Shown: piece by piece, positions 2 to 27,170 of the stretch
How positions within the stretch are numbered: the stretch's first letter is position 1
Layout of the letters: each line of letters starts with the position of its first letter
DNA from: Candidatus Bathyarchaeota archaeon
GTDB taxonomy: Archaea > Thermoproteota > Bathyarchaeia > Bathyarchaeales > DTEX01
Assembly (NCBI GenBank): GCA_018396405.1
Contig: JAGTQD010000008.1
Location: forward strand, 1 to 36,464
DNA: 36,464 nucleotides
Reading direction: 5' to 3'
Translations under genes and position numbers: made by a program
Notes under the pieces: generated by a model
What the model saw: only the letters and a program-made list of their open reading frames with translations
Database searches by the model: none
Told to the model about the DNA's origin: nothing

Positions 2-1156
2 TTAGAGTATAGAAAAATGCAAGGCTTTAATGCTTTACAAATAAATATTTTACCACAGCATGATAGGAGCGAAACAAAATACCGAATAAATCCTTTTCAA
101 ATTCTTTCTGATGGAAAATGGGATTTTAGTAAAAAAAACAACAAATATTTTGATAGAGCAGAAAAAATTATTGAAATGGCTGTTGAAAGAGGTTTTGTGC
201 CTGCTCTAGTAATTTTATGGTGTGATTACGTTAAGGGTACAAGACTGACAATGAAAGATGAATCAAAGGTTATACCAGAAGAATATTTAGAAGAATACGT
301 TGAATATGTTGTCGAAAGATTTGGAAAATATGATGCAATATTTATAGTAAGTGGAGATACAGATTTAGCAACAGAAGATGCAATGAGGTACTACAGTACC
401 GCACTTAGTATTGTCAAAGGTGTGTCTCCCGGCTCCCTAACAACAATGCATTTAGTTGGGGGATTAAGTGATCTTCCAGAATCTATAATTTATTCTCCTC
501 ATTACGACTTTTACATGTATCAATCCGGTCATCGTAAAGAGCATCAATATCGCCCATATGAAATGGCCCAGAAATTCTATAACATGCCTGTTAAGAGACC
601 AATAGTTAACGGTGAACCATGTTATGAAGGAATGGGATCCATAAGAGCCTATGAAATATACGGGAGATTTAATAACTTTGATGTGAGAAAGGCTGTTTGG
701 CAAAGTCTCCTTTCCGGAGCAAAGGCGGGAGTAGCCTATGGAGCGCACGGAATATGGTCATGGCAGAAACTAGATCGAGAATATAGGTATACTGTCTCTT
801 ATGGTACACCTTATCATTGGAGTACAGCGTTGCATTTTCCAGGAGCATTTGATGTGGCATTTGCAAAGTGGATCTTTGAGAAGTACGACCTATTTGATGT
901 GGTGCCTGCAAATGATAAGCTTTTGAACGAAACTCCAGAGATTCGTGTTGCGCAAGGAGTAGATAAGATAGTAATTTACTCGCCTTTTAATGTAGATATA
1001 AAGTTAAAAGTTGATAGTTCACTATACGAATGGGAAGGAATAGAGCTTGAAGGTCGAAGAATCTTTAAGCCAAGAATTAAAGACGAGGGAGGTTTCTCTC
1101 GAATAAAGATGACAGTTTTCAATGGAGATTTCCTAATAGTTGGAACAAAAATCTAA
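2..1156 (+). CDS. DUF4038/GH140 (apiosidase-like) glycoside hydrolase, 5'-truncated by window edge
   Basis: Frame is open to base 2 upstream of the listed Met. Motifs KYFDRAEKIIEMAVERGFVPALVILWC, IVSGDTDL, RPIVNGEPCYEG and DVRKAVWQSLLSGAKAGVAYGAHGIWSW resemble the DUF4038 TIM barrel, with NGEP a likely catalytic-Glu motif. Confidence 0.75.
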   Translation, partial: LEYRKMQGFNALQINILPQHDRSETKYRINPFQILSDGKWDFSKKNNKYFDRAEKIIEMAVERGFVPALVILWCDYVKGTRLTMKDESKVIPEEYLEEYVEYVVERFGKYDAIFIVSGDTDLATEDAMRYYSTALSIVKGVSPGSLTTMHLVGGLSDLPESIIYSPHYDFYMYQSGHRKEHQYRPYEMAQKFYNMPVKRPIVNGEPCYEGMGSIRAYEIYGRFNNFDVRKAVWQSLLSGAKAGVAYGAHGIWSWQKLDREYRYTVSYGTPYHWSTALHFPGAFDVAFAKWIFEKYDLFDVVPANDKLLNETPEIRVAQGVDKIVIYSPFNVDIKLKVDSSLYEWEGIELEGRRIFKPRIKDEGGFSRIKMTVFNGDFLIVGTKI

Positions 1157-1982
1157 AAACGCTTATAAGGAGCGGTTTCACCACTTGGACATTAAGTATC
1201 TTGTTAGAAAAAGTATAAGTATAAGAATGAAAGTTGTTGAAATTATTTATAAGTCAAGAATGGGTCATATAGGTGGGTCGCTATCTGAAACCGATATTCT
1301 CGTAGCCCTCTTCTATGCTGTTATGAAGCCTGATGATAAATTTATTCTGAGCAAAGGACATAGTGTAGAAGCATACTATGTTATTCTTGCAGATAAAGGG
1401 TTAATACCGTGGGAGGAGCTGGAGAAGTATTGTCATTTCGGATCAAGACTTATCGGTCATCCATCCGTTGATATTCCTGGAATTGATGTTGCAACAGGTT
1501 CTCTTGGGCACGGCTTATCAATCGCTTGTGGTATGGCTCTTGCGCTAAAACTGGATAAAAAGGATAATAAAGTCTATGTACTGATGGGTGACGGTGAACT
1601 CCAGGAGGGGTCAGTTTGGGAAGCCGCAATGTTTGCTAGCACGCATAAGTTAGATAATTTAGTTGCAATAGTTGACAGAAATAGGTTACAAATTGGAGGT
1701 GATACAGAATCTATTGTGAAACTCGAACCGTTAGCTGACCGATGGGCTTCTTTTGGATGGGAAGTTAAAGAAATGAACGGACATGATATTGAAGAGATAG
1801 TTAATACGCTTAATTCGTTCACTTTTAATTCAAAGCCTCATATTGCAATAGCAAGAACTATAAAAGGTAAAGGTGTGAGTTTCATTGAAAATAATTATAG
1901 GTGGCATCATGGCGAACTGGACGAAGAAAAATATCAAAAAGCAGTTGAAGAATTGAAACGTCATCTGGAGGCAATAGGATGA
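1140..1982 (+). CDS. Transketolase, N-terminal (TPP-binding) subunit
   Basis: GHIGGSLSETDIL, FILSKGHSVEAYY, ATGSLGHGLSIACGMALA, MGDGELQEGSVWEA. The listed start is TTG at 1140 and overlaps the upstream gene; the true start may be internal. Confidence 0.93.
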   Translation: MEQKSKNAYKERFHHLDIKYLVRKSISIRMKVVEIIYKSRMGHIGGSLSETDILVALFYAVMKPDDKFILSKGHSVEAYYVILADKGLIPWEELEKYCHFGSRLIGHPSVDIPGIDVATGSLGHGLSIACGMALALKLDKKDNKVYVLMGDGELQEGSVWEAAMFASTHKLDNLVAIVDRNRLQIGGDTESIVKLEPLADRWASFGWEVKEMNGHDIEEIVNTLNSFTFNSKPHIAIARTIKGKGVSFIENNYRWHHGELDEEKYQKAVEELKRHLEAIG

Positions 1983-2926
1983 ACCCTCATATACCATGCA
2001 GAAAAGCCTTCTCTGAAAAACTTTTTGAATTAGCAAAAGATGATAAGTCAATTATCGTCTTGACAACCGATGCTCGTTTCTCTGCGGCGATAGATGTTTT
2101 TTCTTACCATCTTCCTAACCAGTTTATTGATGTTGGAATAGCAGAACAAAATGCTATAGGTATAGCTGCTGGCCTATCTAAAATGGGAAGAAAACCCTTT
2201 GTTTTTATGCCAGCCTGCTTTTTAAGCGCGAGGTGCATAGACCAAATAAAGGTTGATGTGATATATTCAAAGTCAAATGTGAAACTCATAGGTGTAAGCG
2301 GAGGAATAAGTTATGGTCCTTTAGGTTACACTCATCATGCGGTTAATGATGTCGCAATAATGAGAACTTTTCCAGGAATGACTATAATATTGCCTTCAGA
2401 TGCTAACCAGGCAAAATTGGTGGCTGAAAAGCTAGTGGAGCATACTGGTCCAGTTTATGTCAGAATGGGGCGCGGTCCTGTTCCACCAGTTTACCATGAA
2501 AATTTAAGATTTGAGATTGGAAAAGCAAATTTGCTAACGGAAGGAGATGATGTCACTATTATAGGTATTGGTGAAACAACATATTATTGCCTGGAGGCAG
2601 GCAAGCTCCTAAAGAAAAATAGTAATATCAATGCTGAAATCATTGATATGCCAACTGTTAAACCTCTAGATGAAGATTTGCTCTTCAAAGAGGCAAAGAA
2701 AACTGGCAGGATAGTAGTTGTTGAAGAGCATTCAATTTGCGGTGGTTTGGGAAGTGCCATCGCAGAGTTTTTATCCCAAAACTTCCCTACACCAATGAAA
2801 ATTTTATCTTTACCAGATGATTTCCCAATAGCAGGCTCATCTTTACAAGTATTTGATTATTATGGGCTTACGCCTGAAAAAATTTCTCGAAGTGTAGTTG
2901 ATTTCTTAAGCAGATTCAGAAAATAA
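1979..2926 (+). CDS. Transketolase, C-terminal subunit
   Basis: FIDVGIAEQNAIGIAAGLSKMGRKPFV, GPVYVRMGRGPVP, VVVEEHSICGGLGSAIAE. ATGA overlap with the N-terminal subunit. Confidence 0.93.
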   Translation: MNPHIPCRKAFSEKLFELAKDDKSIIVLTTDARFSAAIDVFSYHLPNQFIDVGIAEQNAIGIAAGLSKMGRKPFVFMPACFLSARCIDQIKVDVIYSKSNVKLIGVSGGISYGPLGYTHHAVNDVAIMRTFPGMTIILPSDANQAKLVAEKLVEHTGPVYVRMGRGPVPPVYHENLRFEIGKANLLTEGDDVTIIGIGETTYYCLEAGKLLKKNSNINAEIIDMPTVKPLDEDLLFKEAKKTGRIVVVEEHSICGGLGSAIAEFLSQNFPTPMKILSLPDDFPIAGSSLQVFDYYGLTPEKISRSVVDFLSRFRK

Positions 2927-2941
2927 TTTTGGGGATGCAAA

Positions 2942-4420
2942 TTGGACAATGAGGAAACATACGTTATAACTATTGATCAGAGTACGTCTGCGACTAAAGG
3001 CATACTTTTTAATTTAAAGGGCGAAAAAATATATGAATACTCCTTATCCCACGCCCAATATTATCCGAAGCCTGGGTGGGTAGAACATGACCCTGAAGAG
3101 ATATACAAGAACACTCTAGCAGTAATTTCGATTCTCAAAGAGAAAATCGCTGAAGAAAATATCCTAGGTCTGACAATAACTAATCAAAGGGAAACGGTTA
3201 TTATGTGGGATAAGAATAGCGGAAAGCCATACTATAACGCTATTGTATGGCAATGTCTTAGAGGCGCAGAAATATGTGATGAATATCGGAAGAGAGGATA
3301 TGAAAAGATGATTACGGAGAAAACCGGCCTAGTTTTAGATCCATACTTCTCAGCAAGTAAGATAAAATGGCTTATAGACAATATTGCTCCTCCCACGAAT
3401 CGACTTCTTATAGGAACAATTGACAGCTGGCTTATATGGAAGCTTACGGAGGGCAGAGTTCACGCAACTGACTATTCTAATGCATCAAGAACAATGCTTC
3501 TCAACATAAAGAAACTTTGCTGGGATGAGGAACTATTAAATCTATTTGGTATTCCGAGCTCAGCGATGCCGAAGATTTATTCATCCAATAGTATTTTTGG
3601 CTTCTCCGATTGCGGAGGTTTATTAAGGAGAGAAATACCAATAAGTGGTGTTCTTGGAGACTCTCAAGCTTCCCTCTTCGGAGAAGGTTGCTTTAAGAGA
3701 GGAATGGTAAAGGTAACTTATGGAACAGGCTCTTCAGTTGCAATGAATATAGGCCATGAATATATGGTTCCGCCTAAAGGTATCGTAACATCCATTGGCT
3801 GGAGAATTAACAATGATGTTTCCTATATTTTAGAAGGTAATGTTCACGCAACGGGTGCAACGATAAGATGGCTTATAGACAATATTGGATTAAGTGTAGA
3901 ATTAGACAATATTGAAAAAATGTGTCTTTCACTAGAGGATAATGAGGGAGTATATTTTGTCCCGGCTTTTAGCGGACTAGGTGCGCCTTATTGGGAAAAT
4001 AGGGCAAAAGGAATAATATACGGTCTTACTCTTAAAACTAAAAAGGAGCATATTGTAAGATCTGCTGTAGAAGCAATAGCGTATCAAATAAAAGATGTCA
4101 TAGAGGTTTTAATGAAGGGTTCAAGAATAAAAATCAATAAAATAAAAGTTGACGGTGGAGCTGCAAGAAATAATTTTTTAATGCAATTTCAAGCTGATAT
4201 TCTGGGGATTCCTGTATTAAGAGCTACAATAGAGGATATGTCTGCCTTTGGTTCCTTCCTAATGGGTGGATTGGGCTTTAAAATTTGGAAGAGTTTAGAT
4301 GACCTCGAAAAATTACTATCAGAAAAGAAATGGGACATTTTTACGCCAAAATTGTCTCCAGAGAAAAGGAAAAAATACTATAATGAATGGAGGAAAGTCG
4401 TGAAAAAATCTCTGCCATAA
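2942..4420 (+). CDS. FGGY-family carbohydrate kinase (glycerol kinase-like fold)
   Basis: IDQSTSATKGILFN, LTITNQRETVIMWD, NAIVWQCLR, DPYFSASKIKWLIDN, GDSQASLFGEGC, KVDGGAARNNFLMQFQADILG. TTG start. Confidence 0.9.
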   Translation: MDNEETYVITIDQSTSATKGILFNLKGEKIYEYSLSHAQYYPKPGWVEHDPEEIYKNTLAVISILKEKIAEENILGLTITNQRETVIMWDKNSGKPYYNAIVWQCLRGAEICDEYRKRGYEKMITEKTGLVLDPYFSASKIKWLIDNIAPPTNRLLIGTIDSWLIWKLTEGRVHATDYSNASRTMLLNIKKLCWDEELLNLFGIPSSAMPKIYSSNSIFGFSDCGGLLRREIPISGVLGDSQASLFGEGCFKRGMVKVTYGTGSSVAMNIGHEYMVPPKGIVTSIGWRINNDVSYILEGNVHATGATIRWLIDNIGLSVELDNIEKMCLSLEDNEGVYFVPAFSGLGAPYWENRAKGIIYGLTLKTKKEHIVRSAVEAIAYQIKDVIEVLMKGSRIKINKIKVDGGAARNNFLMQFQADILGIPVLRATIEDMSAFGSFLMGGLGFKIWKSLDDLEKLLSEKKWDIFTPKLSPEKRKKYYNEWRKVVKKSLP

Positions 4421-4522
4421 AAAGAAACTAGAAATATATTATCATGAGGAAAAATTATTAAGTTTTAAAGTCAACAAAAAAGTTAAAGTCTAGATGAGTG
4501 AAAAGGTAGAGAGGGAGCTTTG

Positions 4523-5935
4523 ATGGATATAACTTTTGGTTTAATTGTGGGTAACAGAGAGTTCTTTCCTGAAGAATTAGCAATAAAGGGAAGAGAAAGA
4601 ATGCTTAAGGTTCTAAAAGAGGAGGGCTTCGAAGTAATATGCCCATCAGGTGATGATACCAAGTTTGGGGTCGTTGGATCCTGGGAGGATGCAAAAAAAT
4701 GTGCTGAACTGTTTAACAGAAATCGGGATAAAATCGACGGATTAATTATTTCACTGCCAAATTTTAGTGATGAGAAGGCGATAGCCAATACAATAAGAAT
4801 GAGCGGACTCAAAGTTCCAATCTTAGTGCACGCTTTTAGAGACAATATGTCACAGATGGATCCTCTCCATAGAGGCGATAGTTTCTGCGGCAAAATCTCT
4901 GTATGCAACAATCTCCTTCAATATAGGATACCATTCTCTTTAACAACTCTACATACTGTTGATCCTGAAGAAAAAATCTTTAGAGAGGATTTAAAGTGGT
5001 TTGCTGGGGTCTGTAGAATTGTTAAGGGCCTTAAAAACATAAGGTTGGGCGCTGTCGGGGCGAGGCCCTCAGCATTTAATACTATGAGATACTCTGAGAA
5101 AGTTCTTGAAGCATATGGGCTATCCGTGGAAACAATAGATCTATCGGAAATTATAGCTGAGGTCAATAAAATAAGCGATTCAGATCCAAAAGTGAAAGAA
5201 AAGATTAATGAAATAAAGAGGTATGCTAACATAGTAGAAGTTTCTGAAGAGAAGATAAAAGTTCTAGCGAAATTTTATTTATCTATGGAAAAATGGATTA
5301 AAAATAATGATATAAAGGCAGTTGCAATTCAATGCTGGACATCCATAGAAAGGAATCTTGGAATTATGCCATGCGCTATAATGAGCATGCTTAGTGAGAA
5401 AATGGTTCCTTCAGCATGCGAGGTTGACGTTACAGGAGCATTATCAATGTACATTTTGCAATTAGCTTCCGAAACTCCTTCCGCATTAGTAGATTGGAAC
5501 AATAACTACGGATTTGAGGAAGACAAGTGTATAATTTTTCATTGCGGAAACATGCCAAAATATATATTGGAAATAAAATGGATCGGATATGGTGAAATTA
5601 TAGGAAAAGTTGTTGGTTCTGAAGCCGCATTTGGAGCTTGTACTGGAAGAATAAAAACTGGACCAGTCACTTTTCTCAGAATAACAAGTAATGACGCTCA
5701 CGGAAGACTTAAAGCATATATTGGAGAGGGAGAATTAACAGATGATTCTATTGAAACTTTTGGTGCTTATGGAGTAATAAGAGTGCCAAACCTTCAGAAT
5801 TTAATGAAACATGTATGTAGAAATGGCTTTGAGCATCATGTAGCCATAAATAGATCTCATGTAGCGAGAATAGTCTACGAAGCACTAAACAATTATTTAG
5901 GAATAGAAACATATTGGCATAATAAATATACATGA
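4523..5935 (+). CDS. L-fucose/L-arabinose isomerase family sugar isomerase
   Basis: Full-length match to the family style. Probable metal-ligand regions ACEVDVTGALSMY, ALVDWNNNYG and FEHHVAINRSHVA retained. ATG at 4523 after GAGGGAG. Confidence 0.8.
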   Translation: MDITFGLIVGNREFFPEELAIKGRERMLKVLKEEGFEVICPSGDDTKFGVVGSWEDAKKCAELFNRNRDKIDGLIISLPNFSDEKAIANTIRMSGLKVPILVHAFRDNMSQMDPLHRGDSFCGKISVCNNLLQYRIPFSLTTLHTVDPEEKIFREDLKWFAGVCRIVKGLKNIRLGAVGARPSAFNTMRYSEKVLEAYGLSVETIDLSEIIAEVNKISDSDPKVKEKINEIKRYANIVEVSEEKIKVLAKFYLSMEKWIKNNDIKAVAIQCWTSIERNLGIMPCAIMSMLSEKMVPSACEVDVTGALSMYILQLASETPSALVDWNNNYGFEEDKCIIFHCGNMPKYILEIKWIGYGEIIGKVVGSEAAFGACTGRIKTGPVTFLRITSNDAHGRLKAYIGEGELTDDSIETFGAYGVIRVPNLQNLMKHVCRNGFEHHVAINRSHVARIVYEALNNYLGIETYWHNKYT

Positions 5936-5961
5936 AATATTTGATTATTTATAAACTTCTC

Positions 5962-7977
5962 TCATAAGAATTCCACTATAACGATAGTGTATATTACTAG
6001 TTTAGGTATCTTAAACAATATTTTATCTTTGTCTTCAAAGTAGTTCTTTATTTCTTCTTCTCCCTCATAGTCAGGCGATAGAACTGATATTCTTTTTAGT
6101 CTTCTTTTTGCGGGATTTTTTAGCTCCACTAGAATATTTTTAATAGTGTTATTTACGTCAAAGTTCACAAGGTGTAAAATCAGTTCTTTATTCCTCCTAT
6201 AAAACTCCGCGACAACACTTAATGGTGCATAAATTTTTAATGGTATCCTTCCTTTACTGGCCCACTCAACTGCTTCAACTAGCTCATACCAGTTTTTAGG
6301 AAGTTTCCACTTATTTGGCGAAATATCAATGTATTTTCTTTGCTCTTCATCTTTTTTTAGAGGAATTTGCTCGGCTGGCTCTATTCTTGGTATGTAGACA
6401 ACGCGACCTTTACCATAGAAGTTCATATTTTTATGAGCATCTTCAATTTTTTCAAAACCAAATAAATCTGCTAATCCAAAACATCTCCTTCTTCTACGCC
6501 ACTCATCATAAAGTGAGGTTGCATCTGTAGCCACTAGGCCGCCACCATTAAAAACGAATTCACGAATTCTTCTAATTTGTTCGTCACTCAAAGATTCCTG
6601 GTTAGCTAATACTAAGACAGAATACCTTGGTAAGTTTTCTATCTGCTGATCGAAGATAATGTCGAATGGTATTTTGGCCTGAATAAGTGTTTGCTCAAAG
6701 AGGATTGTGCTTAGGTGTGTGCTAAAATTATTATAGGCCATAGAAGTAAATGAGCGTAAAATAGCAACTTCAGCGATGCTCTCTGCATTAGTATACAAAT
6801 CTTCATGCTTTAGATAAAAATCATAGTAGTGCAAAGTCTCTATGTCCTTAGGTCCATAAGGTCCACCCTCATATCCAAACCCCGGGATCATAAGTGGCTT
6901 ATTGAAAGCCATAGCAACCGCCCACTCTACTTTGCCAGCTCCGCGACAAGGTGGCGAAGCAACAGTCATGTTCAAGATTCGTGCAACTTTAAAGCTCCTT
7001 ATCTCCGAAATTAACGCTCCATCCTCAGTCATATGGGCGTATACTCCACTATCCATTATCATGCAATCACATGCACCCGAAAATCTTGAGTGATCAATGG
7101 CTTCAATGAACGCTCTATTTCTGCCATAAATGCCCTTGATATTTATTGCAACTGGAATTGAGGGATTAAGACTTTTTATATACTTATATATCTCCCTAAA
7201 GAATTCGGCTTTACTGTGACATCTAAAATCTATCCATTCTTGTTTTAATGGGTCATCTATAGTAATTAGATCCCAAGGTTGATTAAAGATGTTCCATGTA
7301 GGTGGTGAAATTAAATCTAGTCTTGTAAATCCAAATCTTTTCCTAAGAGTTTCCTCATCATATTTATTTCTAAGAAAATCTTTAAATTTCTTCACGCATT
7401 TTGGGCAATGGCATGATTGGGGCTCTGGTCTGCCTATACCAGGATTGTCAAAAAAGATTCTATCGGCTCCTATCTCTTTGATAGCATATCTAACAATTTC
7501 CTTTATATATCCTAAGTACTCCTCATTATTGTAACAAGGGAAATATCTATTCGTTTGATGACCAGAATACGTAATTGGTTTTCCATCCTGGTCTATTTGA
7601 GCCCATTCACGAGCTTTAGGGTTCTCAAGAAATAGTGTCTCCGCAAATAAAGTTCCACCAATGTACACGCTAACTTTTATACCATACTTATGGCATAACT
7701 CAACGAGTTTTTTAGTATTCTGCATCTCCTCTTTTTCAATTTCAAATCCAAAACCTTTATAGAAGTGAACACCGCCACCATCAGCTGGCAAAAGTCTAAC
7801 GCCTAGAGCTGCTATTTTCCTAATATTTTCTTCAGAATGAGCAATAGCGTATTGTTCTTCAATATCAGTTATTGTTCCCCCTCTTCTCCTTTCGAACATA
7901 AGTGGTTCATTGCTTGGCCAAACGATCTCTTTCAAAAGGTTCTCTCTAAGAGCGTCGTCCAAATCTTCTCCCTCCAA
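5962..7977 (-). CDS. Glycoside-hydrolase-like TIM-barrel protein with beta-galactosidase trimerisation-like (GATase1-like) domain
   Basis: IGADRIFFDNPGIGRPEPQSCHCPKCVKKFKDFL (Cys motif after the barrel strand as in GHL/GH42-like proteins); PRYSVLVLANQESLSDEQIRRIREFVFNGGGLVATDATSLYDE is trimerisation-domain-like. No signal peptide; TTG start. Confidence 0.65.
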   Translation of the reverse strand: MEGEDLDDALRENLLKEIVWPSNEPLMFERRRGGTITDIEEQYAIAHSEENIRKIAALGVRLLPADGGGVHFYKGFGFEIEKEEMQNTKKLVELCHKYGIKVSVYIGGTLFAETLFLENPKAREWAQIDQDGKPITYSGHQTNRYFPCYNNEEYLGYIKEIVRYAIKEIGADRIFFDNPGIGRPEPQSCHCPKCVKKFKDFLRNKYDEETLRKRFGFTRLDLISPPTWNIFNQPWDLITIDDPLKQEWIDFRCHSKAEFFREIYKYIKSLNPSIPVAINIKGIYGRNRAFIEAIDHSRFSGACDCMIMDSGVYAHMTEDGALISEIRSFKVARILNMTVASPPCRGAGKVEWAVAMAFNKPLMIPGFGYEGGPYGPKDIETLHYYDFYLKHEDLYTNAESIAEVAILRSFTSMAYNNFSTHLSTILFEQTLIQAKIPFDIIFDQQIENLPRYSVLVLANQESLSDEQIRRIREFVFNGGGLVATDATSLYDEWRRRRRCFGLADLFGFEKIEDAHKNMNFYGKGRVVYIPRIEPAEQIPLKKDEEQRKYIDISPNKWKLPKNWYELVEAVEWASKGRIPLKIYAPLSVVAEFYRRNKELILHLVNFDVNNTIKNILVELKNPAKRRLKRISVLSPDYEGEEEIKNYFEDKDKILFKIPKLVIYTIVIVEFL

Positions 7978-8197
7978 GTCCTGAGGGGAATGGACTTATA
8001 TTTAAAGATTTTGTGGAAGAAATATGCCAAGTAATACCGGACTCTATGTTTTCTCTTACAATTTTTGGAGGTTTTGAGACATAAAAGGAGCCACTTACAA
8101 TAATAATGCTTACGTTATTAATGGCACTCTTCAATCTGTCCATAACTCATAATTTTCGAACCCTAAAAATAAATAGCTCTTAGTCTCTCTATTAATT

Positions 8198-9280
8198 TTG
8201 GTGAAATGTATGAGGCCATTCTTTAAGAAAGAGGACATTTTTAAGTTTAATCCCAACATACCCGAAGTTCATGCTCCGACAATTACGGAAACAAATAACG
8301 GCGACCTATTAGCAGCATGGTTTGGCGGGTCAAAAGAGGGTGCAAGCGACGTAGCAATATACTCATCTAGGTTTAATCTAGATGATGAAAAATGGAGCGA
8401 CCCTAAAATTTTAGCCGATATCCCTAAAAGATCGGATCAAAATCCGGTCTTATTTACCCACGGAGATACCATCTGGCTCTTCTTCTCCAGTCTTGAGGGC
8501 GGTGGCTCAACTAGTATAATCATGTATAAGAAAAGTCTCGATGATGGCTTTACTTGGTCTGAAGAAAAAATATTTCGAAAGAGAATGGGTCTGTGGGTTA
8601 GAAATAGACCAATCATCCTCAATAATGGTGATTTTCTACTACCAATATATGATAGGAGGGCTATGCCTAACTGCTGTTATGTTATGATTTCTGAGGATGA
8701 TGGTGAAACATGGGAAACTTATGGCCCAATAACTTCGATAACTGGATGCGCACAGGGAAATGTTGTTCAATTATCTGATGGAACATTAATGATGTATATG
8801 CGGACAAGAAGTCACCCCTTACACCAGTTCTTACACGGCCCACAAAGGCTAACCAAAATAGAGATTTCACCAGGCCAGTTTATAATAAAGAGAGAATCGC
8901 CTTCAATTGGAGGGTTTATATGGGAGTCCAGATCAAATGATAATGGAAGAACATGGAACCAATCTTCAGAGACAACAATACCAAATCCCAACAGTGGGAT
9001 CTCCCTTATAAAACTTAGAGATGGCAACCTTGTCTTAGCATTCAATGATACCCATGTTGGGCGCTCGCCGCTTAATGTTGCATTATCAACGGATGAAGGT
9101 AAAACTTGGATGTATAAAAAAGTGCTTGAAAATGGTGAGGGCGAATTCTCCTATCCTCAGCTTATCCAGTCGTCCGATGGGTTAATTCACGTTGTCTATA
9201 CGTATAGAAGACTAACAATTAGGCATGCCGTTTTCAATGAAGAATGGCTGAAAGAAAAAGAGCAATCTTTAGCGGATTAA
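8198..9280 (+). CDS. BNR/Asp-box sialidase-like beta-propeller protein
   Basis: EVHAPTITETNNGDLLAAWFGGSKEGASDVAIYSSR, Asp-boxes SLDDGFTWSEE, SEDDGETWE, SNDNGRTWNQ, STDEGKTWMY. No signal peptide. Confidence 0.82.
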   Translation: MVKCMRPFFKKEDIFKFNPNIPEVHAPTITETNNGDLLAAWFGGSKEGASDVAIYSSRFNLDDEKWSDPKILADIPKRSDQNPVLFTHGDTIWLFFSSLEGGGSTSIIMYKKSLDDGFTWSEEKIFRKRMGLWVRNRPIILNNGDFLLPIYDRRAMPNCCYVMISEDDGETWETYGPITSITGCAQGNVVQLSDGTLMMYMRTRSHPLHQFLHGPQRLTKIEISPGQFIIKRESPSIGGFIWESRSNDNGRTWNQSSETTIPNPNSGISLIKLRDGNLVLAFNDTHVGRSPLNVALSTDEGKTWMYKKVLENGEGEFSYPQLIQSSDGLIHVVYTYRRLTIRHAVFNEEWLKEKEQSLAD

Positions 9281-9296
9281 TTTAAAAATTTCCCCT

Positions 9297-11513
9297 CTAA
9301 AGCATTATCACCACATCTTTTCTCCTATATTTTGGGGTGACCTTCAATTGTCTTATTTTTCCATTTTGATAAATGCATTCAATAATGGTTTTGTAAGGTG
9401 CATGAAGCTTGAATCTTACATTCCAATTTTTTGGCCATGCTGGAAAAAGAATTATCTTATCGTTAACGCATTGAAGCAACATTGCTTGTAACGCTATCAT
9501 TCCAACATTCCCATGCGTTTGGTCAGGCACCCAATCAAAGTTTGGTCCCCAGAAAGCTGGAAACCTACAATATTTGTACCTATATTTGTCAGAGAAACGC
9601 TCTATAATAAGCTCCTGCGCCTCTAATGTTAAACCTAAATAGGCGGCTTGAATAACGTCCTGCTGCCAACCTTTATTGCCTTTAAAACGTCTGCTGAAAT
9701 ATGTTTCTTGAGCAACCTCAATATTTTCTCTACCAACCCCATAAATTCTAAATGGGAACACCGCGTAAAGTTCTGGGTTCTCGCAATTTCTTGGTTTGAC
9801 ATCTTTAATTTCTTGAGCTGGAGCAAGAATGCTTTTTCCATTTTCACTCTTAACTGGAATTGGGGGCATCTCCTCAAGCAAGCGTTGCCAAAATAATCTA
9901 TTATTTTCGTCTGAGATATGCGGAGGAAGGCGTAATAGCTTATTTAACACAAAAGTTAGGCCTGCAATGTCAGGTAGAGGATTAACACAATTCCACCACG
10001 TCTCTAATGCTTGCGATGGCTCAAAGCGGATTTTTCCATTTTCATCTCGCTGATGATGTTCATCGTAAAATTGAAGAATGGCATTTGCCAGTGGGAGTAA
10101 AATCTCCTTTGCGAATTTTTCGTCTAAAGTATAAAAATAGTAATCGAGCATCATTGCGATTAACTCGATGCCTCCTTCCCAATGATATCTAATGTAACCA
10201 TTCTCTACATAAGAGACATGTTTTCCTTCTCGTTTCCACCCGTAATTGTCGAGCGCGTATGCCCCCCAAAAATATAATGTTTCGGGAAAGTATGCCCCCC
10301 TATGACCAAAGTATATTCTGACTCTTGTCTCAGCCATCGGTAGTAAAGCCAAGTACATTCTAAATAATGGTTGCATCATATCAAAGTCGCCGGACTTTAG
10401 CATTGGCCAATAAATTAGGCGAGTGTTCTGAAACCAGTAAGGTCCACCCCATCTTCGGTAATCTGCATTAAGCCCCTTCTCTTCATGATCAAAAGTAAAA
10501 ATTGAACCATTAAATTTAATTGGATAAGCGCCCAAACCAGCAATAGCATTCATAAAGCGTTGCAGAATATAGCCACGCGTAACAATTTTACAGTTTTCAT
10601 CACCATCAATATAAATCCAGCTGCGTTTCCAGAATCTTCTCCACCATTTTCTGTGAGCAGTCCTTTTATCAATTAATCTTCTCTCCTTATCAGACTCAAC
10701 AAGAATCTTGAGTTTGTTTAACCATTCGTCGAGATCCTTAGTCTGAGCGGTAAGCAGGTAGATTGAAAGAAAATGCTTTTTCCTTGGCTTAACACTCTTT
10801 AGGGTTTTTTCGTTCTCCAGGATTAATCCTTCTGCTCTGATAAGTCCACCGAATGTTCTGTTAAGTAGTGGGTCCGGAAACCAGCGTGTTATCTCCTCTA
10901 AACCTTGATTAATCATCGTCTCCATATATATCGAGACATTGTTTCTATGGCACCATACTATACAATCCTTCATTTTGGAAGATAAAACCACGTCAGGATA
11001 TTCCTTTACTGGATGGGGTGCACCTCTCATTCCATAAGCGCTCTCAATTTCTTCCTTAGATAGTTCCCTTTCCCTATTTCGCCATAGTTCAAGAATAACC
11101 TCCATGTTAACCCTCTTATTAGAGCGAGCATTCAGTCTAATAACTGGCTGATCAACATCGACCCATATCAAAATGTTAATCTTCATTTCTTCTTTTACGC
11201 ATGAAATTTCAATTTCTCCCCTCGCTAAGTTTAAAATCTGGTTAAAAGATGAATAATTATTAAACGGATTTGGTGCAAATTTTATGCGTACTTTTCCAAC
11301 CTTCACTAATCTTGCATTTTCATCCCATGCATCAGTCTTACTTATATATAGAAGAAGATCACCTCCTTCCTCAACCCAAACATTAAGCCCTACATCACCG
11401 TTACCAAGAGGCATCGACTCAGAAGAAGATTTAGATGGTTTAGTCCATATTAGCAGTTTTCTTTCTAAGTCAAAAATCGATTCATCTATATTGTTCGAAT
11501 GAGACATCATCAT
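9297..11513 (-). CDS. DUF5703-type / GH95-like six-hairpin glycosidase
   Basis: N-terminal W-TKPSKSSSESMPLGNGDVGLNVWVEEGGDLLLYISKTDAWDENARLVKVGKVRIKF; alpha/alpha-barrel region with VPDQTHGNVGMIALQAMLLQ; C-terminal beta-sandwich. Starts ATGATGATG. Confidence 0.7.
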   Translation of the reverse strand: MMMSHSNNIDESIFDLERKLLIWTKPSKSSSESMPLGNGDVGLNVWVEEGGDLLLYISKTDAWDENARLVKVGKVRIKFAPNPFNNYSSFNQILNLARGEIEISCVKEEMKINILIWVDVDQPVIRLNARSNKRVNMEVILELWRNRERELSKEEIESAYGMRGAPHPVKEYPDVVLSSKMKDCIVWCHRNNVSIYMETMINQGLEEITRWFPDPLLNRTFGGLIRAEGLILENEKTLKSVKPRKKHFLSIYLLTAQTKDLDEWLNKLKILVESDKERRLIDKRTAHRKWWRRFWKRSWIYIDGDENCKIVTRGYILQRFMNAIAGLGAYPIKFNGSIFTFDHEEKGLNADYRRWGGPYWFQNTRLIYWPMLKSGDFDMMQPLFRMYLALLPMAETRVRIYFGHRGAYFPETLYFWGAYALDNYGWKREGKHVSYVENGYIRYHWEGGIELIAMMLDYYFYTLDEKFAKEILLPLANAILQFYDEHHQRDENGKIRFEPSQALETWWNCVNPLPDIAGLTFVLNKLLRLPPHISDENNRLFWQRLLEEMPPIPVKSENGKSILAPAQEIKDVKPRNCENPELYAVFPFRIYGVGRENIEVAQETYFSRRFKGNKGWQQDVIQAAYLGLTLEAQELIIERFSDKYRYKYCRFPAFWGPNFDWVPDQTHGNVGMIALQAMLLQCVNDKIILFPAWPKNWNVRFKLHAPYKTIIECIYQNGKIRQLKVTPKYRRKDVVIML

Positions 11514-11583
11514 TGATCCTTTTTAGTTAAGGAAATTCATCGATTTAATATTTTTGGAAAAAATCAGACCTTCATTGAGGAAA

Positions 11584-11592
11584 CTATAAATA
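11584..11592 (+). promoter_or_regulatory. Putative archaeal TATA box for the TIM-barrel isomerase
   Basis: CTATAAATA about 50 nt upstream of the start. Confidence 0.4.
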
Positions 11593-11638
11593 GTGCTAGG
11601 TAACTCCAAAAATAAAATGCACGGCTTGGTGATCTTTA

Positions 11639-12442
11639 TTGTTTAGATTGGCATGCTGTATGCGAGCTACCCCGGAAAACCTTGAGGTTCTCTCGAAACT
11701 TAACTTCTATGGTATAGAGATTCCAGCTTCCGTGCAATTAAATCCTTATATTATTTCTAAAGAAGAGCGAGAAAAAATAAGAAGCATGGTCGAATCTTTT
11801 GATCTCAAAATAGTTGCAGCAAACGTAATTTATCCGAGGGAGATGCGGCATGTCGCTGAAGATGAAAATGTTAGACAAAAAAGCATCGAATATACATGGA
11901 AGCTGGCGGAAGCAGCCGCCGATATAGATTGCAGGATACTAGTTTGGGGTTCATCTTTCGCAAGAAATATACCGCCAGATATGCCATTTGATGTTGGAAG
12001 AGAAAGAAATTTGGCGATTCTTAAAGAGGCTGAAAAAGCTGGACAAGAATATGGTGTTATATTCGCTATAGAACCACTTTCTAAAAGGGAAAGCAACTTT
12101 ATAAATACTGTTATAGAGGCATATGAGGTAGCGGAGTCAATAGGCGCGAATTATCTTATGGTTTTAGCTGACTTAAGACACATGATTCGAGAGGAAGAAA
12201 GCGTTCTCGATTCACTAAGAAAAGTCTCTAAACGTTTAGTGCATGTTCATATTGCTGATGAAAATTCACGTGTTCCAGGTAAAGGCGTATTAGACTTTAC
12301 CAAGATATTAAAGGTTCTAGAAGAAATAGGCTATAAAGGCTGTCTTTCGATTGAGTCCAGAATAGAAGGTAACGTTATGGAAGAACTTGCATTTGCCAAA
12401 AGATATCTTGAATCCTCATATGCTAAAATCTTTGCTCCTTAA
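11639..12442 (+). CDS. Sugar phosphate isomerase/epimerase family (xylose isomerase-like TIM barrel)
   Basis: FYGIEIPAS, AAADIDCRILVWGSS, FAIEPLSKRESNFINTVIEAYEVAESIG, LVHVHIADENSRVPGKGVLDFTKILKVLEEIGYKGCLSIE. TTG start preceded by GGTGATC. Confidence 0.85.
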   Translation: MFRLACCMRATPENLEVLSKLNFYGIEIPASVQLNPYIISKEEREKIRSMVESFDLKIVAANVIYPREMRHVAEDENVRQKSIEYTWKLAEAAADIDCRILVWGSSFARNIPPDMPFDVGRERNLAILKEAEKAGQEYGVIFAIEPLSKRESNFINTVIEAYEVAESIGANYLMVLADLRHMIREEESVLDSLRKVSKRLVHVHIADENSRVPGKGVLDFTKILKVLEEIGYKGCLSIESRIEGNVMEELAFAKRYLESSYAKIFAP

Positions 12443-12543
12443 TGCTGCCAAAATTAATTGTTTAGCTAAGAAAACAATTAGTTTATAATGCCCCATTATT
12501 TTTAGTCTCAAAAATTAATATATGTGATAAGGAAAGGATTATT

Positions 12544-12636
12544 ATGTTTCGTCTTTATGAAAAGACCAGCAAATACTCAAGTCCGAAAAATTTAAAAGAG
12601 ATAATTTTGAAAATATCTGGTGAGGAAGATCCATGA
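12544..12636 (+). CDS. Possible 30-aa micro-ORF (MFRLYEKTSKYSSPKNLKEIILKISGEEDP)
   Basis: ATG preceded by GGAAAGG; stop TGA overlaps the downstream ATG as ATGA. TATA-like AATTAATATATG lies upstream. Confidence 0.3.
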   Translation: MFRLYEKTSKYSSPKNLKEIILKISGEEDP

Positions 12637-14522
12637 AGAGAAAGTTCTCTCTATTATATATAACCCTATTGATAATCTTCTGTCTCCTCCTTTCGTCACA
12701 ATCTAACTTCTTTATGAAGGCACGAGGTACTCAGGGTTCATGGCCTTGCTTCATGAATAACTTAGCTAACACTGGGTATGCTGAAGAAGTCTCTCCACGA
12801 ACGGCGAACTTAATGTGGAATCGGACCGTGGGCAATATAGAGAGTGGATGTGCCATTTACAATAATTTTGTTTATGTCACTACAACAAATACTCAAGCAG
12901 TTTACGCATTAAATCTGGAGACAGGTGAAGTTATATGGTCTACTCCAATCGGAAGGACTATGCGTTGTGTTCCGGCTATTGCTGATGGAAAAGTGTTTGT
13001 TGCTGATGAAAGCGGATATATAATATGCCTAAATGCAAGTGATGGTAGTGTAATCTGGGAAATTCAGCTATCCTCTCAGTCTATATCACGCGCTCATCCA
13101 AAGGTTGTTGGAGGAATGGTTTTAATCGGTTGCTATGATGGGTATCTATATGCTCTTAATGCCTCACCAGTAAATATGCCTCTTGAGAATAGAATCATAT
13201 GGAAGTTTAAGACTGGTGGTCAGATAAGGGGCGCGCCAGCTATCGTGGATGGCAAGGTCTACATAGGGTCAAATGATGATTATATTTATTGCATTAGTCT
13301 CAGCAGTGGCGAGGAGATATGGAGGTTTAAGACTGGTGGAGATATTCGTGGGTCACCTACAGTTGCTTATGGTAAAGTTTACGTTGGATCATTTGATTGT
13401 TATGTTTATGCGTTTGACATGAATACTGGAAGAATGATATGGAATTTCACAACAGGAAATAGAGTTAGTGGGACCCCGGCAGCCGCTTACGGTAAGATTT
13501 ATATTGGATCACAAGATAACTGGATCTACTGTCTCGACGCCGAAACAGGAGCCTTAAAATGGAAATTTGAGACCAAAGGGCTTGAATATAATTCTCCAGC
13601 GGTCGCCAACGGACTCGTGTACATGGGTTCAAAGGATAAATCAATCTATTGCCTTAACGCCGAAACAGGAGAGCTTGTCTGGAAATATGAGACTGGAGGT
13701 GAGATTCGGGGTGCACCTGCAATTGTTAACGGTATACTTGTAGTCGGCTCGTTTGGTGATGGTAACGTCTACGCGTTCAGTGATGTTCCTGCCATCAATA
13801 AAACTCTAGTTGTTGAAGTTCTCTGGTCTGATGGTAGTGGGATAGCTGGAACTGAGGTTACCGTTAATAGCAAATCAGCCCTTACTAATTCTTCCGGTAT
13901 AGTTACCTTTACGCTTCCCATTGGATCATACAATCTGACGGTTAAACATAATGGACTCCTCCTTGTTTCAAGGAGTATAGATTTAAATGATAATATGAAA
14001 ATAACAATAAACGTGCCCAAGAAAATAACTCTTAATGTTGAAGTTCTTTGGACTGATGGAAGCGGAGTATCTGAAGCCATGGTTGAAATTGACAGCTTAT
14101 CAGCTTTCACAAATACTTCTGGAAAAGCTACATTCAGTCTCGATCCTGGGTTATATAATTTAACGATAAAGTATTTAGGATTTACTCTAGAATCCCGAAT
14201 AATAGAGCTTACAAAAGATACAACCATAGGCGTTATCAAAGATAAAGGACCCTTTGAGCTCATAGTAAGTCTAAGAAACCAGGTTGCGTATTTAGAGAGT
14301 GAGAGAAAAACCCTAGAAGAGCAAGTTAATAGCTTAACAAGCCAGGTTAACAGCCTAAATAATCAGATAGATAGCTTGAACAGTCAAATTAAAAGCTTGC
14401 AATCTCAAGTCGCAAATAATCTCTACATGGGGCTTGGAGCTGGCATAGTTATTGGATTGATAGTGGGAATAGGCATCGGCTTACTGATGTTTAAGAAGCC
14501 AAGCCTCCCTTCCACTCCTTAA
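12633..14522 (+). CDS. Secreted PQQ-like beta-propeller protein with two Ig-like repeats, coiled coil and C-terminal TM anchor
   Basis: Signal peptide; repeated VYIGSNDDYIYCISLSSGEEIWRFKTGG units; twin VEVLWSDGSG/VEVLWTDGSG domains; SLTSQVNSLNNQIDSLNSQIKSLQSQV coiled coil; NNLYMGLGAGIVIGLIVGIGIGLLMFKK. Confidence 0.88.
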   Translation: MKRKFSLLYITLLIIFCLLLSSQSNFFMKARGTQGSWPCFMNNLANTGYAEEVSPRTANLMWNRTVGNIESGCAIYNNFVYVTTTNTQAVYALNLETGEVIWSTPIGRTMRCVPAIADGKVFVADESGYIICLNASDGSVIWEIQLSSQSISRAHPKVVGGMVLIGCYDGYLYALNASPVNMPLENRIIWKFKTGGQIRGAPAIVDGKVYIGSNDDYIYCISLSSGEEIWRFKTGGDIRGSPTVAYGKVYVGSFDCYVYAFDMNTGRMIWNFTTGNRVSGTPAAAYGKIYIGSQDNWIYCLDAETGALKWKFETKGLEYNSPAVANGLVYMGSKDKSIYCLNAETGELVWKYETGGEIRGAPAIVNGILVVGSFGDGNVYAFSDVPAINKTLVVEVLWSDGSGIAGTEVTVNSKSALTNSSGIVTFTLPIGSYNLTVKHNGLLLVSRSIDLNDNMKITINVPKKITLNVEVLWTDGSGVSEAMVEIDSLSAFTNTSGKATFSLDPGLYNLTIKYLGFTLESRIIELTKDTTIGVIKDKGPFELIVSLRNQVAYLESERKTLEEQVNSLTSQVNSLNNQIDSLNSQIKSLQSQVANNLYMGLGAGIVIGLIVGIGIGLLMFKKPSLPSTP

Positions 14523-14585
14523 TTATTTCTCTTTTTAAAAAATCTTATACTTGTGAAGATATGTATGGTATTGAGGTGAAAACCG

Positions 14586-16103
14586 GTGAAACTTCACCGT
14601 CTAGTTATTCTCATCGTAATAGTTCTCATGGTCTTCTCTGTCTTATTTTTTCTTACAAAGATGCCAGTGAGCACACATGTAGAAACAGTAAGCTATGAGT
14701 GGTCATATAGAGGTTTTTCCGTTGGATATTTACTAGCTGAAAGAGAAGGTTTTGGTCGAAGTGTAACTGGTGGGCTTGGTGGTAAAGTTTATCATGTGAC
14801 TACGCTTGCTGAGAGCGGGCCGGGAAGTCTCAGGGATGCGGCTGAATCTAGTGAACCTCTCTGGATAGTGTTTGATGTTAACGGAACAATAAATCTCTCA
14901 AAACCAATAAACGTCAAATCACATAAAACGATTGATGGGAGGGGAGCTCAAATAACTATTTCTGGATACGGTTTTTCGATTAATGGCGCCTCAAATGTAA
15001 TAATTGTTAACCTACGTTTTGATACCGCTAAAGAGCCAGGTATAGACGCCATAGAAATTAGAGGTTCAAATAATGTGTGGATACATCACTGCGACATAAC
15101 AAATTATTCGGATGGCGGGATAGACATAGTTAGGCAATCAACTAATATAACAATTTCATGGTGTAGATTTTGGAATCATGACAAAGTTATGCTGATTGGC
15201 AATGATCCCTCGGCAACAGCTGATGAAGTAATATGTGTGACGCTTCACCATAATTTCTTCTTTAGGACTGTCCAACGGAACCCAAGGCTCAGATTTGGAA
15301 AAGTAGATGTCTACAATAATTATTATTATGGGTGGCAAGCTAGCGCTGCCATAGCGGTAGCAATGCATGGCCAAATATTGCTTGAAGCCAACATAATTGA
15401 GGCTGAGGATAGAAAAACCTTTATTTCTTCAACAGCTGGTTCAGATCCAGAAGAAGGATATATCAAGATGATTAACAATCTTCTCTTAAACGGTGCAGTT
15501 GCCAAGGAGAATAAACCTGAAAAAGTGTTTAGACGCGAAGATTATTATACAGCAAATATAGAGCCTGCGAGTGAAGCATTAAAGGAAAGGATAATGGCAT
15601 TCGCTGGAGTGGATTTTCCAGCTGAAGCGAGAATAATGAAGGATCACAAGCTTATTATGGAGGATTTTCGTTGGAAAGAAATTATGGGAGATCCAATAAA
15701 TGTGGGGGTATCAATAAAATTATACGCCATTGTTCCACCATATAGAAGCCCATCTGAGAAAGCGGTTATCTATGAGTGGAATTTTGGAGATGGAAATATT
15801 ATAGAAACAAAATCTTTCTCGATTTCTTATGTCTATAGCAGCCCAGGAAACTATACTCTTAAAGTATCTCTGAAGGATCAAAATGGTGTCCTACTAAAGA
15901 CAATTTATGCTAATGCTAGAGTGATAAGCTCGTCCTCTAATGGATTGAACTCAAGTTCAAGCACAGCGGATCGTGACATAGGCTCAGAAAATAATTTTTT
16001 CATACTTATATCAGTCATCTTGCTTTTCATTGCGGTGACAGCTATTTTTATGGCATCTTCTCGCAGAAAATATTGGTTTAGTAATCCTCGTTCAAGAACA
16101 TAA
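14586..16103 (+). CDS. PL1-type pectate lyase with PKD-like domain and C-terminal TM anchor
   Basis: GGLGGKVYHVTTLAESGPGSLRDA, KTIDGRGAQITI, VWIHHCDITNYSDGGIDI, NITISWCRFWNHDKVMLIG, LHHNFFFRTVQRNPRLRFGKVDVYNNYYYGW; PKD-like YEWNFGDGNIIETKSFSISYVYSSPGNYTLKVSLKD. GTG start. Confidence 0.9.
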   Translation: MKLHRLVILIVIVLMVFSVLFFLTKMPVSTHVETVSYEWSYRGFSVGYLLAEREGFGRSVTGGLGGKVYHVTTLAESGPGSLRDAAESSEPLWIVFDVNGTINLSKPINVKSHKTIDGRGAQITISGYGFSINGASNVIIVNLRFDTAKEPGIDAIEIRGSNNVWIHHCDITNYSDGGIDIVRQSTNITISWCRFWNHDKVMLIGNDPSATADEVICVTLHHNFFFRTVQRNPRLRFGKVDVYNNYYYGWQASAAIAVAMHGQILLEANIIEAEDRKTFISSTAGSDPEEGYIKMINNLLLNGAVAKENKPEKVFRREDYYTANIEPASEALKERIMAFAGVDFPAEARIMKDHKLIMEDFRWKEIMGDPINVGVSIKLYAIVPPYRSPSEKAVIYEWNFGDGNIIETKSFSISYVYSSPGNYTLKVSLKDQNGVLLKTIYANARVISSSSNGLNSSSSTADRDIGSENNFFILISVILLFIAVTAIFMASSRRKYWFSNPRSRT

Positions 16104-16193
16104 CAATCTCTAGGCAAATATTTGCTTTTCTGCTTTAACGCGTAATTTTTAAATAAGGAGTCTAAGGGATATTTATTAATGAGAGGGAGTCTC

Positions 16194-18359
16194 ATGTCTT
16201 ATGAAAAAGTTTACGTACCAGCCGTTACTAAGAAGGCGTTAGCATTAGCTCTTATAGGCATAGCTATCAGCGCCCTTATGTGGCCCGGTAAGAGTTTAGG
16301 CGTTGGAAGTAAACCCGTTCCAATGATAAGATATAGATTCCCCTATTCAACCGACGAGTATTGGTGGGAGGGCGGGCACTACTTTCAAGCCCTTCTAGGT
16401 TGCTTCTCCGTTGGGCTAGCTTTCATATTTGTCTGCGGTCTAGTGAACTACGGCGCATCGAAGGGATGGTGGAAAATAAAATTCTCAGGGCAGGAGCTGG
16501 CATTGATAATGGCACTAGTGCCACTAGGAGCAATATTTGGCGGTTCAGACTATTGGAACCCATGGGAGCAAACAACCATAATACAGGGTTTCGTACCCGG
16601 AGTAGTAACTGACAGTTCTTGGTGGAATCTTATTCCGCCAGTAGTTTTCGGTCCGAGAAGCGCATCGGTTTGGTCATATTGCTATGTGCCCGGAAAGCCA
16701 ATCAAGGGTACATATATGCCCTGGGAGATACCCTGGCTAGCTATATTACCAAACATGCTGATATTCTGGGTCTTCCTCATGCTTATGGTGATTTGCCTAA
16801 TGTGTGCGAGCGCACTAATGAGGTACATATGCATTAAGACCGAGTATTTAGCTTTTCCGTTCAATGAGGTTTACGGTGGCATCGTTAATCTTGCTAAAAT
16901 AGATGAGCAAACGAATAGGCCGGGAATGTTCTCGAAGCCATTTGTAATCGGATTTCTAGTATCTTTCTTATGGACATTTGCCTTTTGGGGCTTAGACCAA
17001 TGGATTATGCTGTTTAAGGGAGAGATATTTGATACATGGAAGGGGCGTCTACCTGATCCGAGAACATGGTATCCTACCGATACCCTTGCGTGGCCAGCGT
17101 ATGATTTTACGCTTCTCGATCTGCTGGACTGGTCACCGCTTTTCTTCCAAACTGGCTTATGGGAGATAGGCTGGGCATCGCTTATACCAATAAATGTTCT
17201 ATTGAGCGGTCTAATAGGTTTTGTCGCAATATATGTTGTTCTCCCGCCAGTTTGGGTCTATGTAGCCAATCAAACTCCGATGAATCCGAACACATCAGCC
17301 TTTGAGGCGATTAAGAGATTACAACGTGGCTATACATGGGGAGGCTTATGTACCGTGCCAATGTTTCTCGGAATGTGCTTGGCAATTATAGTAGCTATGA
17401 TCGTGAACAATTGGAGAGAGTCGCTTATAATCTTTAAGTCAATAGTTAAAGAACCCTTCAAGGAATTTGATGAGGATCGACCACTTCCCTATAGATGGCT
17501 ATGGTGGATAATGCTAGGCAGCTTTTTCTTATGGTTCCTTATGGGAATTTTCGTTTTCCAAATGATGCCAATACCACTATTGTTGTATGGCATCTTCATG
17601 GTTGTTACATATCTTGCTACAGGAAAAATAATCTCTGAATCAGGCGGTTGGCTAGGTTTCATGCAACCAAACTACTTCTCAGCCTTAAACTTCACAGGAG
17701 CTATGATTACATACCACTTTAACCTCCTGCCTACTGGTAATCTAGATACTAGTACCGTTACTACCCTCTGGTACATAGCTAGAAATCGATCCATTAATAA
17801 TTGGTTTGAAGTAGTGCCATGGTATACACTATATTCGTTAAAGATGAGTGAATCTCAAAATCTCAGAAGCCGGAAAATGCTATTAGCGCTGATCGTAGGG
17901 TTTGCTTTAGCCCTGATTATCAGCCCAATATTATATGAAATAGAAGTGGCGTATGCTCCCTATTCCGACGCGAGAGGAAGGGGCATCATTAACCTGATTA
18001 AGGATAACCTAAGTAGGGGCACTATTGAATCCACATATCAATGGACACAATACAGCAGGTACACATCTATCTCCTTACAGACAGTCGCAATATCTTTCGC
18101 TGTTATCTTAGCTCTCTCTATCCTGCAGCGATATATAAGCTTCTTAAGGTTCCTTAGCATTGGAGGCTTAATTACTGGAGTATGGGTTGGCTATACAATG
18201 TGGGCTTCATGGATAATAGCCCTTATTATCAAGATAATCGTACTTAGAGCTGGCGGCACAAAAATGTACGAAGAAAAGCTAAGGCCTCTATCATTAGGGT
18301 TCTTTGCGGGAGGACTGATAGCGTTCTTTCTTGCACAGGTGGGCTGGATGCTAAAGTAG
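16194..18359 (+). CDS. OPT-superfamily/DUF6785-like multi-TM membrane protein
   Basis: Many hydrophobic segments; FSGQELALIMALVPLGAIFGG; IKTEYLAFPFNEVYGGIVNLAK; C-terminal IIKIIVLRAGGTKMYEEKLRPLSLGFFAGGLIAFFL. Likely start ATG 16194 after GAGGGAG; ORF track starts at 16179. Confidence 0.65.
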   Translation: MSYEKVYVPAVTKKALALALIGIAISALMWPGKSLGVGSKPVPMIRYRFPYSTDEYWWEGGHYFQALLGCFSVGLAFIFVCGLVNYGASKGWWKIKFSGQELALIMALVPLGAIFGGSDYWNPWEQTTIIQGFVPGVVTDSSWWNLIPPVVFGPRSASVWSYCYVPGKPIKGTYMPWEIPWLAILPNMLIFWVFLMLMVICLMCASALMRYICIKTEYLAFPFNEVYGGIVNLAKIDEQTNRPGMFSKPFVIGFLVSFLWTFAFWGLDQWIMLFKGEIFDTWKGRLPDPRTWYPTDTLAWPAYDFTLLDLLDWSPLFFQTGLWEIGWASLIPINVLLSGLIGFVAIYVVLPPVWVYVANQTPMNPNTSAFEAIKRLQRGYTWGGLCTVPMFLGMCLAIIVAMIVNNWRESLIIFKSIVKEPFKEFDEDRPLPYRWLWWIMLGSFFLWFLMGIFVFQMMPIPLLLYGIFMVVTYLATGKIISESGGWLGFMQPNYFSALNFTGAMITYHFNLLPTGNLDTSTVTTLWYIARNRSINNWFEVVPWYTLYSLKMSESQNLRSRKMLLALIVGFALALIISPILYEIEVAYAPYSDARGRGIINLIKDNLSRGTIESTYQWTQYSRYTSISLQTVAISFAVILALSILQRYISFLRFLSIGGLITGVWVGYTMWASWIIALIIKIIVLRAGGTKMYEEKLRPLSLGFFAGGLIAFFLAQVGWMLK

Positions 18360-18375
18360 CTATGGAGAGGTGGAT

Positions 18376-26661: not shown

Positions 26662-27169
26662 ATATGAAGGTTTATGGATTGCTGGAGGCCACTGGCTTTT
26701 TGCATTTGCTATTATTTATTGGATATGGGATGATTCGCAAAGGCATAGCAAGAGAGCTTGGCCTTGGATATTGCTAATATCCCTTGGGGATCCCCTGGGC
26801 ACATACCTAAACAATATATACCGCTATGAGATATTACCAAGTAGAGGAGTCTACCCATATCTTGTGCCATTATTCAAGTATAGGTCTGACTATTTTATAG
26901 AGCCAGTTTGGATTTTAGATAAAATTTTCTTTTGGAATACCTTCTATAATGTGGTTTCATGGACCATCATATATATTGTCATCTTCTGGATTTATCTTGA
27001 CTGCAAAAGATCGAATAGAAGGGCTACTCCTTGGATTTCGGTTGCAAGGTTCATACAAATTGCTCCATTCCCAATAAATTATTTCATACCTTTAGGAGGC
27101 TATACGGGCCAAATTTTCATATTAGTAGGCTACCTACTACATAAATATGGGTATTTACGGAGGAAATGA
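26651..27169 (+). CDS. Uncharacterised small membrane protein with internal duplication
   Basis: YWIWDDSQRHSKRAWPWI and FWIYLDCKRSNRRATPWI repeats; GTG start overlapping the upstream gene. Confidence 0.7.
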   Translation: MYVEYEGLWIAGGHWLFAFAIIYWIWDDSQRHSKRAWPWILLISLGDPLGTYLNNIYRYEILPSRGVYPYLVPLFKYRSDYFIEPVWILDKIFFWNTFYNVVSWTIIYIVIFWIYLDCKRSNRRATPWISVARFIQIAPFPINYFIPLGGYTGQIFILVGYLLHKYGYLRRK

Positions 27170-27170
27170 T

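Follow-up and report, generated by a model that had tools for sequence, protein, structure and literature searches.

A candidate D-apiose catabolic operon in an archaeal genome, on a contig rich in pectin-degradation genes

Five genes at the start of a 36,464-nucleotide contig from Candidatus Bathyarchaeota archaeon very probably form an archaeal operon for the catabolism of D-apiose. This reading draws on the gene families, their order, their placement in trees and residue signatures. The contig (G000:C87) was analyzed in its entirety, and we refer to it as the window. An earlier note on this DNA proposed that the cluster carries the whole route from glycan-bound apiose to central metabolism. 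The families, clades and signatures described below support this proposal, except that a sugar transporter of the (ABC) type known for D-apiose is missing from the operon. We infer the operon's substrates, cytosolic location, uptake route and regulation. We found no earlier description of archaeal apiose use or archaeal GH140 in the literature, although many journals lay outside our search.

In the proposed pathway, a GH140-type apiosidase would release D-apiose from apiosides, whether fragments of plant pectin or others, and an isomerase with the FucI/AraA fold would convert D-apiose to D-apulose. An FGGY kinase, derived from glycerol kinase, would phosphorylate D-apulose to D-apulose 4-phosphate. 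A two-subunit ThDP transketolase would then transfer the C1-C2 unit of this compound to glyceraldehyde 3-phosphate, yielding dihydroxyacetone phosphate (DHAP) and xylulose 5-phosphate. DHAP would enter glycolysis, and xylulose 5-phosphate would reach pentose metabolism via a ribulose-phosphate 3-epimerase encoded elsewhere in the genome. A gene for this epimerase is present on contig C51 of the host, whose genome also has one gene of the OMP decarboxylase/HPS family.

The five open reading frames all lie on the forward strand (Table 1), and an opposite-strand gene marks the 3' boundary of the operon. The earlier note's description of five co-directional, tightly spaced genes is borne out by the reading frames and their Pfam matches, with corrections to start codons and spacing. 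Two genes probably start later than their longest reading frames, namely those for the transketolase N-terminal half and the isomerase. In the former case, homology to other AptA proteins begins at the TTG codon and there is an AAGGAG upstream of it; with this start the gene would follow the apiosidase after a 28-bp gap, rather than overlapping it by 17 bp. The two transketolase genes overlap by 4 bp, and gaps of 15 bp and about 100 bp precede the kinase and isomerase genes, respectively. A promoter scan using a sigma-70 model, which is not suited to archaea, found nothing above shuffled sequences.

Table 1. Genes of the candidate operon and its downstream neighbor, in window positions
Feature	Position	Strand	Evidence and remarks
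Apiosidase (GH140-type, PF13204)	2..1156	+	Pfam PF13204 1.6e-70; 384 aa present, 5' end cut by contig start
Transketolase N-terminal half (AptA-like)	1140..1982	+	Pfam Transketolase_N 4e-41; probable start TTG 1185
Transketolase C-terminal half (AptB-like)	1979..2926	+	Pfam Transket_pyr 1.5e-31 and Transketolase_C 5e-33
FGGY kinase, putative D-apulose-kinase type	2942..4420	+	Pfam FGGY_N 2e-67 / FGGY_C 1e-36
Putative D-apiose isomerase (ApsI-like), FucI/AraA fold	4520..5935	+	Pfam Fucose_iso_C 1e-28; probable start ATG 4523
GHL6/GH42-like glycoside hydrolase candidate	5962..7977	-	Pfam GHL6 3.8e-9, GH42 6e-8

The host genome is archaeal. Its assembly comprises 1.49 Mb in 108 contigs and is rated 95.6% complete. 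It encodes the C-terminal family of RNA polymerase Rpb5 (Rpb5_C), whose matches among control genomes are confined to archaea. In addition, one gene of the window contig belongs to a large peptidase/permease family that is present in 10 of the 11 genomes of the genus, G000 included. Because of these two observations, it is unlikely that the contig is a stray or misbinned bacterial one.

The natural points of comparison are bacterial. D-apiose clusters have been described in Escherichia, where a kinase and two transketolase genes are associated with growth on D-apiose, and in Pectobacterium, where the isomerase gene apsI is present in addition to the kinase and transketolase genes (PMC13001218). 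Our reference genes are those of the E. coli SE15 cluster named in that paper. Plasmids of Klebsiella, Rahnella and Sodalis carry the order AptA-AptB-isomerase-kinase near a ribose-type ABC transporter, and their isomerase belongs to the fucose/arabinose isomerase family. From this comparison of clusters we infer that it is ApsI, since it is the gene that the Escherichia clusters lack. The window shares with the established pathway (D-apiose degradation I, found in Pectobacterium, Klebsiella, Rahnella, Escherichia and others) the isomerase family where an isomerase is present, the clades and signatures of the kinase and the split transketolase, and the clustering of the genes. It differs in that its host is archaeal, in that an apiosidase gene heads the operon, in the order A-B-kinase-isomerase rather than A-B-isomerase-kinase, and in having no adjacent ribose-type ABC transporter or regulator.

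The window's order of transketolase halves, kinase and isomerase also occurs in three bacterial loci (L100, L104 and L115), and two others (L128 and L131) have the isomerase first, followed by the transketolase halves and the kinase. The same four-gene order is kept in G009, a genome of a sister archaeal genus, at 68-74% identity (72% for the isomerase). The G009 genes share their contig with a gene of DUF373, an archaeal family. There is no apiosidase beside them, and a remote PF13204 protein is encoded on another contig of that genome.

The first gene of the operon was considered GH140-like in the earlier note, and this holds for its Pfam family as well as for its closest solved structures in sequence and fold. 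By sequence, these structures are the GH140 enzyme 8t9w, annotated "Apiosidase" (4e-21), and BT_1012 (5msy/3kzs; 4.4e-10). Since the window is a complete contig and the gene starts at its edge, the predicted protein is truncated; relatives in the same genus have about 40 additional N-terminal residues. The AlphaFold model of the truncated protein is poor (pLDDT 65), but its top fold matches are still 8t9w and 5msy. The catalytic motifs GD and GEP..YE are kept, with SGDT and NGEPCYE aligning to GGDRT and DGEPIYE of 8t9w; we take the roles of their Asp and Glu to be those assigned from BT_1012. Thus, the window enzyme shares its PF13204-type sequence and catalytic motifs with BT_1012, which acts on RG-II, and with 8t9w, which comes from a mangrove metagenome. 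It differs from them in its low identity and missing 5' end, and its intact relatives have no signal peptide, as judged by eye from their N-termini. The apiosidase is therefore probably intracellular, and it may act on imported apiosides.

Among 121 genomes of the order, this apiosidase family is restricted to family f1. Three genomes of the same genus encode apiosidases 64-70% identical to that of the window and have no apt genes; an intact one at the upper end of this range (70%) lies at L238, positions 5809-7089. In one of the three genomes, G069, a window-type isomerase survives as a decayed fragment about 29 bp downstream of an intact apiosidase gene (contig G069:C253; L239, positions 6600-7076). 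This remnant contains stops and frameshifts, and it scores 38.9 bits, compared to 22.3 for the best of 300 shuffles. Its position indicates an earlier linkage of the apiosidase to the apt genes in this genus, followed by partial loss. No convincing remnants of other operon genes were found beside the apiosidase in G016 and G039.

It might seem that the kinase and transketolase are a plain glycerol kinase and a housekeeping split transketolase that merely lie beside an apiosidase and an isomerase. The kinase does exceed the cut-off of the NCBIfam GlpK subfamily model (607.9 versus 498 bits), and the G000 assembly contains no other full FGGY kinase and no other transketolase. However, the bacterial apiose-cluster kinases likewise score best with GlpK models, and the phylogenies and residues of both enzymes, which we now describe, speak against this explanation. 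We consider it very improbable.

The transketolase N-terminal half is 42-44% identical to AptA-like proteins of the E. coli, Klebsiella, Caballeronia and Rhizobium clusters and contains the ThDP motif GDG..N, while the C-terminal half is 34-41% identical to AptB. The concatenated halves group with AptAB (support 88/85), and in a second tree the apt and archaeal housekeeping transketolases are split with support 100/100. An AU test rejects grouping with the single-chain housekeeping enzyme of the genus (p = 0.004). Placing the halves with the archaeal housekeeping enzymes as a whole costs 8.7 log units and is disfavored without being rejected (p = 0.11). The earlier note had counted against the apiose reading the combination of subunits that group with housekeeping archaeal pairs and a genome with no other transketolase copy; the second circumstance holds in the G000 assembly, but the combination does not.

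A residue signature agrees with the trees. Where the yeast enzyme has Asp477, the conserved Asp of the GEDG motif, 14 of 14 apt enzymes have Leu, whereas each of the 29 other enzymes keeps Asp. In the window's C-terminal half, the motif, aligned to solved enzymes, reads GPLGYTHH, with Leu (residue 115 of this half) at the equivalent position. Asp477 reads a substrate hydroxyl next to the cleaved bond. Loss of this donor-site contact fits apulose 4-phosphate, because C3 of that donor is branched and tertiary.

It is important to consider the absence of the single-chain transketolase from the G000 assembly, as each of the ten other genomes of the genus has this enzyme. Its absence may be an assembly gap. 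Given this absence, the split pair could also do housekeeping work, and it is conceivable, if unlikely, that the apt-type enzyme replaced the single-chain one and, as the sole transketolase, works in apiose use as well as in central pentose metabolism. In G009, both types coexist, so there the split enzyme looks dedicated, which also argues against a housekeeping role for this type of enzyme.

The kinase, which the earlier note correctly described as an FGGY kinase of glycerol-kinase type, is 34-39% identical to its apiose-cluster counterparts (39% to that of E. coli). In a tree of 52 sequences, it groups with all apt-operon kinases (97/95), whereas GlpKs from its own genus group with E. coli GlpK. 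A smaller tree splits the apt and GlpK kinases with support 100/99, and an AU test rejects a tree in which the window kinase is constrained to GlpK (p = 0.013). The glycerol contacts in E. coli GlpK are Arg83, Glu84, Trp103, Tyr135, Asp245, Gln246 and Phe270. Gln246 and Phe270 are unchanged in 7 of 7 GlpKs, and both are Ser in 15 of 15 apt kinases (Q246S, F270S). The window kinase likewise has Ser at both positions, so that two of the glycerol contacts are replaced; the smaller side chains might make room for a branched ketose. On the basis of the tree and these residues, we rejected its identification as a glycerol kinase. Because the protein passes the GlpK model, as apiose-cluster kinases do, automatic annotation would nonetheless call it GlpK.

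The last gene encodes a sugar isomerase, as had been noted; it matches Fucose_iso_C and belongs to the family found in apt clusters. Over 465 residues it shares 48% identity with the Klebsiella apt-cluster isomerase, compared with only about 27-35% for paralogues elsewhere in the archaeal phylum. Of 398 genomes searched in the phylum, two have a close copy (G000 and G009). The structural model is confident (pLDDT 92), and Foldseek matches it to L-arabinose isomerases (TM up to 0.84) and L-fucose isomerases. Glu301, Asp325 and His440 do not vary among 23 relatives, and the Glu-Asp spacing of 24 is also that of FucI. A tree of 99 sequences places the enzyme within a broad bacterial family, apart from the archaeal paralogues (support 100). 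The best 80 relatives in the genome collection, which may omit records close to the window's genome, are all bacterial, which suggests that the isomerase was acquired horizontally. The window also encodes a TIM-barrel protein resembling IolO and psicose epimerases (11639-12442), a possible sugar epimerase. We dropped it as a candidate apiose isomerase, as the enterobacterial apt isomerase is of FucI type.

However, the isomerase is a poor marker of the pathway on its own. About 70 of the 80 bacterial loci are not beside apt genes, and some are near XylB-type kinases; the family may act on other sugars as well. Therefore, the isomerase supports the apiose reading only in context, and we rejected it as a sole marker. 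These observations raise the possibility that the operon uses the same chemistry (isomerase, ketose kinase and two-carbon transfer) on a different sugar, for instance some other pectin-derived ketose, branched or short; the apiosidase-like enzyme would then act on a related glycoside. It is also true that PF13204 is broader than the proven apiosidases, and that the only NCBIfam isomerase model matched, far under its cut-off, is that of a sulfoquinovose isomerase. Yet all of the enzymes co-occur in apt clusters, the E. coli type of which supports growth on D-apiose (PMC13001218), and the apiosidase linkage appears independently in G069 and in the bacterial locus L086. We regard a different sugar as improbable.

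The sulfoquinovose match deserves separate consideration. A sulfo-transketolase pathway has been described (PMC13219744), and the window might be thought to encode such a route, with a sulfoquinovose isomerase and a split SqwGH transketolase. The transketolase is indeed split, but the match to the isomerase SftI reaches 136.6 bits against a cut-off of 700, and the enterobacterial apt isomerase gives an equally weak one. Moreover, the operon encodes an FGGY kinase and an apiosidase, and not a sulfoquinovosidase, SqwI or SqwF. Given the low score, the kinase and the missing genes, we rejected this route, which is extremely improbable.

The apiose reading also has a parallel in L086, an uncharacterized locus of an uncultured bacterium (302-15355). 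The bacterial isomerase nearest to that of the window (61% identity) lies there within 8 kb of an apiosidase of 44% identity, and a single cluster holds both of them together with a ribulose-phosphate epimerase. L086 differs in having two FGGY kinases of other kinds, one of them XylB-type, as well as a sugar ABC transporter; for 9 kb in either direction from its isomerase there is no transketolase. It is possible that this cluster is a variant apiose route.

Pectin fits as the source of apiose, because the contig carries pectin enzymes. Beyond the operon, it encodes two PL1 pectate lyases, a GH28 enzyme, a DUF5703/GH95-like enzyme and other candidates. This pectin-degradation island adjoins the operon and occupies positions 5962-31551; both lyases carry PKD domains, and the island further holds BNR_2 sialidase-like and GHL6/GH42-like enzymes. 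DUF6785/6784 and OPT-like membrane proteins lie within it, along with three small genes without a Pfam match (16179-18359 and 25993-29700), and a role of these membrane proteins in oligosaccharide uptake is possible. A 1489-aa protein between these segments (18370-22839) combines M28 peptidase and FtsX permease domains, and the contig ends with the gene of a related FtsX protein (33458-36463). Genomes of the genus contain as many as about 20 matches each to such proteins.

The operon represents a known pathway in a new domain, extending a recently described route of plant-sugar catabolism to archaea. Its location on a contig rich in pectin enzymes suggests that some archaea use apiose-bearing pectin. 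In addition, the replacements Q246S and F270S in the kinase and of Asp477 by Leu in the transketolase distinguish D-apulose kinases from glycerol kinases, and apulose-phosphate transketolases from ordinary transketolases, the look-alikes for which automatic annotation mistakes them.
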